From Cellulosilyticum lentocellum DSM 5427 (GTDB lineage: Bacteria; Bacillota; Clostridia; Lachnospirales; Cellulosilyticaceae), in NCBI RefSeq assembly GCF_000178835.2, contig NC_015275.1, positions 4,369,001 to 4,433,000 of the forward strand: 64,000 bases of DNA. The letters are read 5' to 3'. A program made the translations under genes and the position numbers. Each line of letters opens with the position of its first letter. Position 1 is the stretch's first letter. Below the pieces are notes generated by a model. That model worked only from the letters and a program-made list of their open reading frames with translations, was not told where the DNA came from and did not search any database. Below are positions 58,745 through 64,000 of this stretch, piece after piece.

Positions 58745-59167
58745 CTAGTGACCTCTGTGCTTTTCTTTGCGTTTTTCTTGTTTTAAGTCAAATTTATACT
58801 GCTTTTCTGCTTCTTTTTGCAATCTTGAGCGTGATTTTCGCTCTATTTTGTTTTGTTCTTGTTGCTCTTTTAATGCTTGTTGTGCTTTTGTACCCATGCC
58901 TGTATTTTGCAGTTCTCTTTTTATAGCCCTTTGCATTTTTTTAGGATTCATAGGTTTTACAAGTTTTGATGGAACTTCCTCATAATGGCGCCTTTCTAAC
59001 TGGCTCCACTTCTTTAAAATCAGTTCATATACTTCACAATCCTTAGGTTCTGGTCCAAAGGTTATCTTACAAATCTCATAATGACCACCTTCTTGTACCT
59101 CATAAACACCTATCCAAAAAGGTCCCTCAAAAAGTATAGTGAAGCTTGACCTCATACTCTCCATCAT
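58745..59167 (-). CDS. yjdF: YjdF-family protein (DUF2992)
   Basis: A protein of about 140 residues: FTILFEGPFWIGVYEVQEGG, ITFGPEPKDCEVYELILKKW, then the highly charged C-terminus (KKMQRAIKRELQ; KRKEKHRGH) typical of YjdF. The exact start is one of three ATG codons in a row (59170, 59167, 59164) after AAAGGAGG. YjdF proteins are often encoded behind the yjdF RNA, which binds azaaromatic compounds; such a leader is present here. Biochemical function unknown; a role in coping with toxic aromatic compounds has been suggested. Confidence 0.9.
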   Translation of the reverse strand: MMESMRSSFTILFEGPFWIGVYEVQEGGHYEICKITFGPEPKDCEVYELILKKWSQLERRHYEEVPSKLVKPMNPKKMQRAIKRELQNTGMGTKAQQALKEQQEQNKIERKSRSRLQKEAEKQYKFDLKQEKRKEKHRGH

Positions 59168-59170
59168 CAT

Positions 59171-59290
59171 TCCTCCTTTTAATTTACTTAGTAAAGAAGG
59201 GACAACCAAAGGAGGCAGGTTACTGATAGCATTTGCTACGTCCGGACTACCAACCGGAACTGTGTTTTTATCTTTACACTTTTATTCTAC
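59171..59290 (-). promoter_or_regulatory. yjdF-type riboswitch leader
   Basis: The leader upstream of yjdF on the minus strand contains ACAGTTCCGGTTGGTAGTCC with a CCGG/CCGG pairing and GTAGCAAATGCTA. Near its end CCTCCTTT can pair with AAAGGAGG of the ribosome binding site, giving translational control. Identity rests on the gene it precedes and on these features; I could not run a covariance search. Confidence 0.7.
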
Positions 59291-61191: not shown

Positions 61192-62187
61192 TTAGTGCTC
61201 AGTTTCTACTGTATTATATATAGCACTTCCAGCTAATTTAATACTCCTTTCTAATCTTTCACTACTAATATGCTCTATTTGATCTTTAGCTGTATGGTAA
61301 TAGGGTTCGAGAGAACCATAGATACTTGTCCTTTTATTAGGATCTATATTAATAAATACTGCAGCTGGTATACCTACCCTAGTAAAAGAATCGTGGTCAG
61401 AAGCACTGCTAGTTATTAATTTACCTGTCTTATCCCTCTCTGCTTCAGCCTCATAACTTGTAGTCTTACTCGAAAGGCTTGTAAGTTCTTTTCCCACTCT
61501 TGAAGCCACTTCTGTTACTAAATTCTCTTTCCCATCAGCTGTATAAATACCTAGTTCTGTCACAGTTTCATAATCTGTTGCCACCATATCCAGGTTAAAA
61601 CAAGCTATACTTCTTGCTTTTTCATCTTGTGATAAAAATTTTGTATAAACCTTTGAACCTAGAAGCCCCTCCTCTTCTCCACCAAAAGCAACAAATCTTA
61701 TTTCTTTATCAATATCTAAATCCTTCATGGCATTTGCAATCTCTAGTATAGCGCCTGTTCCAGATGCATTGTCATTAGCTCCTGGTCCTGCACTCACACT
61801 ATCAAAATGTGCGGTTACATAAACAATATCATCCGTATCTTGAGGATCTTCACCACTAGGTTTTCTAATTGCTTCTACATTCCAAGAAGTACATTTTTTA
61901 AAAAACTTACTATATTGAAACTTCTGCACTTCTACTGTCATACCTAACTTTTCTAATTCATCAGCAATATAACAAGCTGCTTCGTATTCTTTATCAGTAG
62001 CTGCTGGTCTAGAACCTATAGTTCCTGATAAATGATTAATAAAGCCTAAAGACCTTTCTACATTGACTTGTTCTATAAAAGTAGCTGTCCTTTTATCCAT
62101 AGTATCACTAGCAAAACAGGTCCCTACACTACCCAAAGCTACTATTACTGACAATAGCCAAGCCTTTTTTCTATTTATTAAAAACAC
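61192..62187 (-). CDS. M28-family zinc aminopeptidase, secreted
   Basis: A 331-residue protein with an N-terminal signal (cleavage near residue 26, CFA-SD). Zinc ligands and catalytic residues are in VTAHFDSVSAGPGANDNASG (His127, Asp129, Asp139), FGGEEEGLLGSKVY (Glu171/172) and NLDMVA (Asp), with the final His in YYHTAKDQIEH. It removes residues from peptides outside the cell. It diverges from the orphan RNA at 62343. Confidence 0.92.
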   Translation of the reverse strand: MFLINRKKAWLLSVIVALGSVGTCFASDTMDKRTATFIEQVNVERSLGFINHLSGTIGSRPAATDKEYEAACYIADELEKLGMTVEVQKFQYSKFFKKCTSWNVEAIRKPSGEDPQDTDDIVYVTAHFDSVSAGPGANDNASGTGAILEIANAMKDLDIDKEIRFVAFGGEEEGLLGSKVYTKFLSQDEKARSIACFNLDMVATDYETVTELGIYTADGKENLVTEVASRVGKELTSLSSKTTSYEAEAERDKTGKLITSSASDHDSFTRVGIPAAVFINIDPNKRTSIYGSLEPYYHTAKDQIEHISSERLERSIKLAGSAIYNTVETEH

Positions 62188-62307: not shown

Positions 62308-62336
62308 TTGTAGTTACTTATTTTATTCTTTATTAG
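62308..62336 (+). promoter_or_regulatory. Promoter of the orphan structured RNA
   Basis: TTGTAG (62308-62313), 17-bp spacer, TATTAG (62331-62336). Start of transcription is expected near 62343, exactly where the first paired element (ACTTGGCT at 62347) begins. Confidence 0.6.
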
Positions 62337-62342
62337 GGATTC

Positions 62343-62818
62343 GGTTACTTGGCTACATATATATAAGTATAAGAACAAATAAATAGCTTCCCACGGCATA
62401 ATTACCACAGCTTCAATCTGAGGAACTGACCGGGTCAGCCAAGTCTCAATCTATTGTTATAGGTACCTCTGGACTTAAGGAAGATGTTCACTGATGCGCT
62501 GCAAGGAAGACGCCATATATAAGTTGTTTTAAATGTTTTTATACGTCACATTATCAAATAAAGTTTTAAACCAGAGTCTTAAGGTCTTAGCTTCCTAGCA
62601 TAGGGTGCACCGGCTAAGACTTTTAGGAGCTCCTCACTCATTGGTTTGACTTTCATAACTAGTTCTAGTAGGCACTAAGCTATAACGCATACGTGCTGAG
62701 GAGTCATTTTGCGCCTTGTTTAAGGTCTACTTAGCTAGCTGTGAAAGTTCATTTCAAGAGTCTGGAACAAAAAATAGCTCTTCAAGTAGTGATACTACTT
62801 GAAGAGCTATTTTTTGTT
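62343..62818 (+). ncRNA. Orphan structured RNA, about 476 nt, class not recognised
   Basis: No open frame of note and no downstream gene on this strand. Perfect complementary pairs: ACTTGGCT 62347-62354 with 62437-62444; CTCTGG 62467-62472 with 62571-62576; GTCTTAGC 62584-62591 with 62613-62620; CTCCTCA 62630-62636 with 62697-62703; ACTTTCA 62649-62655 with 62732-62738. The last two cross each other, as in a pseudoknot. A promoter lies directly upstream and a 25-bp terminator at the end. It is not tmRNA, RNase P, 6S or SRP RNA by the motifs I know. Strand is inferred from promoter and terminator. Confidence 0.65.
62766..62818. terminator. Very strong bidirectional terminator, 25-bp perfect stem
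   Basis: Bases 62766-62790 are the exact reverse complement of 62794-62818, with loop GAT and A/T runs on the outside. It serves the orphan RNA and, on the minus strand, overlaps the stop codon of the DUF4173-like gene. Confidence 0.95.
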
Positions 62819-64000
62819 ATCTTAGAAATACTAAAGGCCTCACAGCACCTTCAATACTTTCATAGCCCGCTTCTTTAATTTTTTCTAGATAGTCTCTTCC
62901 TCTATAATCTGCTAGGTTGAAGGCTTGCCACTTTTCATTTTGAAGATTATATTCCAACCTTGAAAGAATATAAGTTGCAGTGTCGTAATACATATCTTCT
63001 TGATATTCAAGTACTTCTGGATGTGAAGCTACCAACTCCTTAATAGGTCCTAATGCACTACTACTTAAATTATAACAGCCACTTAAATCACTTGTTTTGC
63101 CTTGCTTATACAAATTTACATTTTGGCGAGCTACTAGGTAATCTACATTACTATAATTTAATCCTAAGTACATGACTGTAAACACAATAAATACTATTTT
63201 AATAAGCTTCAACTTCTGCCAAAACACTTTAGCAAATACTAATATAACCACCATCAAGCTTAATACTAAAAACCAAGCTACATAAACTCTCCATAAGCTT
63301 AGGCCATATCTCTCCATATACATGAACATCTTAGAAAGAGCACAAGTCACCATAAAAGCTGTAAATCCTGTAATAAAACTAATCATCACTTTGATGTATG
63401 TATTTTTCTTTCCTTTTTCCCTTTTAGTAATATAGCTCAAAAACATAATAGTGAGCAAATTAAACCCTACTATTGGTAATGTCTCAAAAAAGCCTCTTCT
63501 CGCATATTCAGAAGATGAAAAATCTGCAGGTAATACACCCTTAAAAGCTGATACAAAATAGGCTAGCTGAGAACAGCAAAAGATCAAATAAACTACGCAG
63601 AGCAATGTTCCTATGGTACTCACTACTACAAAATCTAGATAGATCCCTGGCTGATTAACCACACTATCTTCTTGATTAATGAGGTCATGTTCCTCATTTA
63701 AAATCCTCTCTGATTCATCCTCCATTAGCAAAGAATCTCTTACCCTCTGAGGATCAATATAATTTTCTCTTACTTCTCTAACTTCCTTATGTGATAAGCC
63801 ATAAAAATAACTAAAGAACATAAAGAATAGAATAACCACAAAGAATGACTTAGCACCCAGTTTGTCAAAATTAAAGGTAAGGTTTTGGAATGCAAAATTG
63901 ATTATTCCCTCAAAAGCAGCATCCGCACTGGCTAACAAGCCAACAACCACTAGCAGTATAGGTGTTGCAATAACTACTCCTAAAAGCACCTTACCTATTA
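62817..64000 (-). CDS. DUF4173-like membrane protein (N-terminus outside window)
   Basis: The frame is open to the window end; a GTG at 63989 is internal and not a likely start. About 394 residues are visible: several membrane spans (VIATPILLVVVGLLASADAA; VVSTIGTLLCVVYLIFCCSQ; FITGFTAFMVTCALSKMFMY), an acidic loop, and a soluble C-terminus with VDYLVARQNVNLYKQGK and DLSGCYNLSSSALGPIKELV, the pattern of DUF4173 proteins. Function unknown; such proteins are often near sensor or envelope genes. Confidence 0.85.
   Translation of the reverse strand, partial: IGKVLLGVVIATPILLVVVGLLASADAAFEGIINFAFQNLTFNFDKLGAKSFFVVILFFMFFSYFYGLSHKEVREVRENYIDPQRVRDSLLMEDESERILNEEHDLINQEDSVVNQPGIYLDFVVVSTIGTLLCVVYLIFCCSQLAYFVSAFKGVLPADFSSSEYARRGFFETLPIVGFNLLTIMFLSYITKREKGKKNTYIKVMISFITGFTAFMVTCALSKMFMYMERYGLSLWRVYVAWFLVLSLMVVILVFAKVFWQKLKLIKIVFIVFTVMYLGLNYSNVDYLVARQNVNLYKQGKTSDLSGCYNLSSSALGPIKELVASHPEVLEYQEDMYYDTATYILSRLEYNLQNEKWQAFNLADYRGRDYLEKIKEAGYESIEGAVRPLVFLR

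Follow-up and report, generated by a model that had tools for sequence, protein, structure and literature searches.

A multicopy family of pseudoknotted RNA genes in Cellulosilyticum lentocellum, apparently within the regulon of an atypical sigma factor

The RNA described here, from a stretch of 64,000 nucleotides of the Cellulosilyticum lentocellum DSM 5427 genome (the window), is one of at least 38, and about 40, dispersed copies in a single Lachnospirales genome. Judged from sequence, these copies probably represent a new, lineage-restricted family of large non-coding RNA genes, which seems to form part of a regulon governed by a dedicated alternative sigma factor. That the copies are genes, and that their RNA folds as set out below, is well supported: two features of a structured non-coding RNA gene were found, namely a promoter and a terminator of its own (at the level of sequence) and covarying base pairs. 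Large structured RNAs are few in bacteria and most of them have no known job. That so large an RNA has this many gene copies, seemingly under a dedicated sigma factor, points to an RNA-based cell programme.

The RNA locus

The RNA copy in the window lies between two genes on the opposite strand, for an M28 peptidase and a DUF4153 protein (Table 1). The earlier note had seen no protein in positions 62343-62818, and indeed no credible protein gene was found there. Nor is any reading frame conserved across the RNA copies; even the longest stretches without a stop codon are short and vary between copies, which rules out a protein-coding reading. Two details of the 5' end had to be revised. The start that had been proposed, 62343, falls inside the spacer of the promoter-like element, and the good promoter that had been read there was not recovered, as a sigma-70 promoter scan gave no sigma-A-type match at the 5' end of the window copy. 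From the position of the -10 box, the predicted RNA would begin near 62367. The general picture of a structured RNA of about 450 nt that looks independently transcribed was retained, as was the perfect terminator at its 3' end.

Table 1. Position of the RNA gene, its parts and its neighbours in the window
Feature	Coordinates	Strand	Remarks
Window copy with promoter	62333-62818	+	Between two (-) genes
M28 peptidase gene, upstream neighbour	61192-62187	-	
DUF4153 protein gene, downstream neighbour	62817-63989	-	Convergent
Promoter-like element	62333-62361	+	TTAGGG (-35), 17-bp fast-evolving spacer, CATATA (-10)
Predicted RNA transcript, about 450 nt	62367-62818	+	Homologous copies, covarying structure, strand-biased folding
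Domain 1	62367-62544	+	Highly conserved, multi-helix, closed by P1; matched by model R1; absent from short form
P1, 5' strand GUAUAAGAAC	62367-62376	+	Pairs with 62535-62544; double changes at 4 of 10 pairs
P1, 3' strand GUUUUUAUAC	62535-62544	+	Covariation over 29 copies
Domain 2	62571-62765	+	Closed by CCAG/CUGG; holds pseudoknot; in long and short forms; matched by model R2
Pseudoknot stem A, 5' strand GCUCCUCA	62629-62636	+	Near-invariant in family
Pseudoknot stem A, 3' strand UGAGGAGU	62697-62704	+	Pairs with 62629-62636
Pseudoknot stem B, 5' strand	62648-62663	+	Top 16x16 window; double changes at 7 of 16 pairs
Pseudoknot stem B, 3' strand	62734-62749	+	Partner of 62648-62663
Perfect intrinsic terminator hairpin	62766-62818	+	3' end abuts stop codon of DUF4153 gene

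Copies in the genome and in relatives

Is the window RNA a single-copy gene? It had been taken for an orphan, a description that the copies in its own genome overturn. By BLASTN, the genome as a whole (G000; 4,714,237 bases, one contig) gave 43 matches; 12 cover the full length with at least 90% identity, and others go down to 75%. Two covariance models made from the copies, R1 for the 5' domain (domain 1) and R2 for the 3' domain (domain 2), matched 30 and 38 times, respectively. There are two architectures: long copies have both domains, while short copies consist of the 3' domain only. The loci include truncated remnants (L143 and L146), which together with L053 and L055 are the broken copies; a few broken copies are expected if many of the genes are dispensable. 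The promoter scan of the genome also revealed two very divergent RNAs (L076 and L090) and a divergent short copy (L091).

Outside this genome, R2 has one match in another genome of the genus (G005, E 7e-5) and R1 has one in Sporanaerobium hydrogeniformans (G007), also of the Lachnospirales, which was the sole match in a pattern scan of 84,980 species. The earlier note had proposed collecting homologues by BLASTN; of the short BLAST matches in relatives, all but that of S. hydrogeniformans look like chance similarity of AT-rich DNA. A pattern search of viral contigs, and phage and plasmid records, yielded no copy. The RNA is almost restricted to one species, an unexpected distribution if it were a structural RNA of importance, and this counts against the main reading. 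In G001, an RNA-like unit of about 330 nt (L107:1501-1860) has the same promoter, a GCUCCU/AGGAGC pairing and a terminator. It shows little sequence similarity to the window RNA family and may be a sister RNA class.

Fold and pseudoknot

The earlier note had proposed that the stems be examined for covariation; computed over the 29 long copies of the same genome, the fold does covary. RNAalifold gave a consensus of 74 pairs for this alignment, to which helix B was added afterwards. With helix B included, 95.5% of the cells are paired across the 29 copies, as against 35-47% when the partners are slid by 1-3 columns, and 20 pairs have changes on both sides. The alignment holds 93 doubly changed cells, compared with 33.7 +/- 6.4 after shuffling, although the shuffles ignore kinship among the copies; sliding the partners and comparing divergent homologues test the fold more strictly. 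Folding of the window RNA without its terminator is biased to the predicted strand (z -2.5 for the + strand, with 0 of 100 shuffles as good, and z -0.8 for the - strand). The covariation over 29 copies is the decisive evidence for structure beyond chance.

Two helices of domain 2 cross to form a pseudoknot. This had been suspected from two short complementary pairs, of which the first is stem A as originally placed; the second was displaced by 10 nt, since 62649-62655 pairs with 62742-62748 and not with 62732-62738. The crossing itself is real. Stem B is the best-paired of all 107,880 16x16 column windows, and its double changes are compensatory. Within the family, stem A hardly varies, which leaves covariation silent there, and it is the divergent relatives that are informative, where compensated sequences take its place. 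In the G005 homologue (L152), stem A is AGCCCCUC/GAGGGGCU; stem B, 15 bp long and made of other letters, again crosses it. Within the own genome, stem A is ACUCCUCA/UGAGGAGU in the paralogue L090 and GUUCCCUA/UAGGGAAC in L076, and in the short copy L091 stem B has been wholly replaced (UUAAUAAUUGC/GCAAUUAUUAA). Because a second species of the genus has the crossing helices in a different sequence, the predicted pseudoknot is well supported.

Termination and gene context

An intrinsic terminator ends 26 of the 29 long copies, and its stem sequence is specific to each copy. Terminators directly behind a structured domain, as in most copies, are what a riboswitch-like leader or attenuator ending in a regulated terminator would show. 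Such a cis-regulatory role is nevertheless very improbable: the terminators are strong, no conserved anti-terminator pairing was seen, and in 19 of the 29 long copies, the window copy included, the gene that follows is encoded on the other strand. It is on this last ground that the window RNA is not considered a leader, as the earlier note had also concluded.

Have the copies spread as a mobile element?

The main rival to an RNA gene family with a cellular role is a selfish one: a non-autonomous, MITE-like element equipped with promoter, hairpins and terminator, whose RNA would serve only the element's spread and have no role for the cell. The dispersal of the copies and the high identity of twelve of them would fit this explanation, as would the position of several young copies between two inverted units of a palindromic repeat of about 310 bp. 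We regard it as possible but unlikely. The older copies (75-85% identity) have kept promoter, fold and terminator through compensatory change, which implies selection on the RNA. Moreover, many copies, including that of the window, lack the palindromic repeat, the homologues in another species have not been amplified there, and the promoter is common to ordinary protein operons. The RNA family resembles MITEs and dispersed intergenic repeats in that many similar copies of a few hundred base pairs lie between genes, some of them inside inverted repeats. It differs from MITEs in the signs of selection on its promoter, fold and terminator, and terminal inverted repeats of its own were not seen.

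The repeat is an imperfect palindrome found at L041:3490-3810 and in about 40 or more further places. Often two of its units, inverted to each other, enclose a payload of 90-900 bp, which in several cases is an RNA gene. The repeat may explain the recent spread of RNA copies, but not the promoter, fold and terminator kept by old ones. The repeat was rejected as a part of the RNA element, as it flanks only some young copies and many of its own copies lie elsewhere. Retro-copying through an RNA intermediate was likewise discarded, since what has been copied extends upstream of the inferred start.

The promoter-like element

Nearly every RNA copy is preceded by the motif TTAGGGA-N15-ACATATA, that is, TTAGGG and CATATA separated by 17 bp, which measures 29 nt in all 36 tabulated promoters of RNA copies. 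In these, the -35 and -10 boxes are near-invariant, while most positions of the spacer carry little information. With 14-21 nt allowed between the boxes, the pattern has 36 matches in the own genome, against one for the reversed pattern; 34 sites have exactly N15. One site (L081) precedes a DUF1659-DUF2922 operon. Another (L077:1501-1529) stands directly before a tRNA-Gln(CTG) gene, just upstream of a short RNA copy.

What is the variable stretch of 15-17 nt between TTAGGGA and ACATATA? It is the most variable part and differs in nearly every copy, as would the guide of an omega-RNA-like RNA in an RNA-guided system. We find this idea barely credible. The stretch has the spacing of a promoter, and because the same motif with a variable spacer precedes protein operons, the guide reading was rejected in favour of a spacer upstream of the transcript. 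Furthermore, Rfam gave no match to HEARO or a related family, and guides acquired by transposition would not keep conserved sequence outside them.

An atypical sigma factor and its putative regulon

Which sigma factor might read this element? In relatives, other genera included, the motif (with at most one mismatch) precedes the DUF1659-DUF2922 operon without an RNA (G001-G005, G014, G017, G019 and G023); it is also found before an amidase and before a family of proteins of about 300 aa that begin with a YYPEL motif. In G001-G004 it lies about 105-115 nt downstream of the end of a small sigma-70 gene, between this gene and DUF1659, and in G019 about 660 nt behind the sigma gene. The gene order in S. 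hydrogeniformans is sigma, DUF1659, DUF2922, YvrJ, and a gene for a 155-aa protein without a Pfam family diverges from sigma there. The sigma gene was found in G000-G008, G014, G019, G021 and G023, including all seven genomes of the genus. The genera g5, g6, g7 and g8 are without it, and there the motif is no commoner than its reversed control. Given this co-location and co-occurrence, it is a good inference that the atypical sigma factor reads the TTAGGG-17 bp-CATATA motif, and a promoter consensus can be offered for an uncharacterised regulon around DUF1659, DUF2922 and YvrJ proteins.

Alternatively, the housekeeping sigma factor or some other one could recognise the element, the neighbouring atypical gene being there by coincidence. 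In G017, whose assembly is incomplete, DUF1659 is preceded by the motif but a sigma match is lacking, and the sigma gene of the own genome (G000:C1:4133187-4133723; L147:3176-3793, - strand) carries an in-frame TAG in region 2, where its homologues in relatives read through. This alternative seems rather improbable, since sigma and DUF1659 directly flank the motif in G001-G004, since sigma is near it in G019, and since motif and sigma gene occur together across genera. Either the sigma gene of the own genome was recently inactivated or its sequence has an error at the TAG; on account of this codon, the regulon of the strain may be silent or misread, or may depend on a different factor.

A comparable arrangement is known from Bacillus subtilis, where the atypical SigO-RsoA pair transcribes yvrJ (PMC8103513). 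Its regulon (oxdC-yvrL, yvrJ, yvrI-yvrHa) likewise links an atypical sigma factor to a yvrJ gene (PMC8103513). By contrast, the factor described here has regions 2 and 4 in one protein, and its apparent targets are DUF1659-DUF2922 and RNA genes, with a promoter consensus derived in the present analysis. No literature was found on the window RNA family, nor on DUF1659 or DUF2922 together with sigma factors. In several genera a conserved protein of about 155 aa is encoded divergently from the sigma gene (L127:13436-13903, L148:4265-4729 and L131:856-1323). Neither Pfam nor NCBIfam has a name for this protein or for the YYPEL protein.

A possible role for the RNA

How might such a family work? 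Each RNA copy would be transcribed alone, by RNA polymerase with the atypical sigma factor encoded beside DUF1659-DUF2922-YvrJ, and the regulon would also hold the DUF1659-DUF2922 operon and, in relatives, the amidase and the conserved 300-aa protein. Less certainly, the folded RNA might be trans-acting, as a scaffold or a structural RNA that binds proteins or assembles with itself; this is a guess from its anatomy, made from the fold. The number of genes may raise the dose of RNA when the sigma factor is active, and the RNA might need domain 2 with its pseudoknot as its essential module but be able to do without domain 1, both with the same lesser certainty. A bolder version, put forward tentatively, is that the sigma factor belongs to a developmental or stress programme common to related Lachnospirales and floods the cell with pseudoknotted RNA from about 40 chromosomal genes, so that RNA rather than protein would be the main product of the regulon, this RNA being a structural or assembly-forming one of the OLE, ROOL and GOLLD style. 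About 40 diverged copies of two domain architectures in one genome amount to an internal natural experiment. Together with a promoter that can be recognised and a candidate sigma factor whose partner genes are conserved, this makes the conditions of expression and the partners of the RNA directly findable.

Comparison with known RNA classes

The earlier note had recognised no known class, and cmscan searches against Rfam release 15 (both strands, at the gathering cut-off and with E up to 10) agree: the window RNA, its locus and five relatives have no family match, only chance microRNA matches on the terminator. OLE, ROOL and GOLLD are RNAs of several hundred nucleotides with an intricate, covarying, pseudoknotted fold and a poorly understood function (PMC12286853). 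The likeness to OLE and ROOL noted earlier holds for size and intricacy, and the family shares with all three a large, covarying fold with a pseudoknot; at the level of models it fails, as those of OLE, ROOL and GOLLD match neither the window RNA nor its relatives. Unlike these RNAs, the family has about 40 chromosomal copies that are not, as a rule, tied to phages or tRNA islands, and its promoter is common to a protein operon. ROOL occurs in phages and prophages, often near tRNA islands; the window RNA has no match in viral contigs or phage records, the window has no tRNA gene, and few lie near other RNA copies. As to HEARO and omega-RNA, no model matched and no IscB/IsrB-type gene is adjacent, the neighbours being the peptidase and DUF4153 genes. 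The Rfam scan also found an unrelated T-box near one RNA copy. An azaaromatic (yjdF) riboswitch is present elsewhere in the window (59182-59281, - strand, 91.5 bits), upstream of an ORF of 154 aa (58745-59209).
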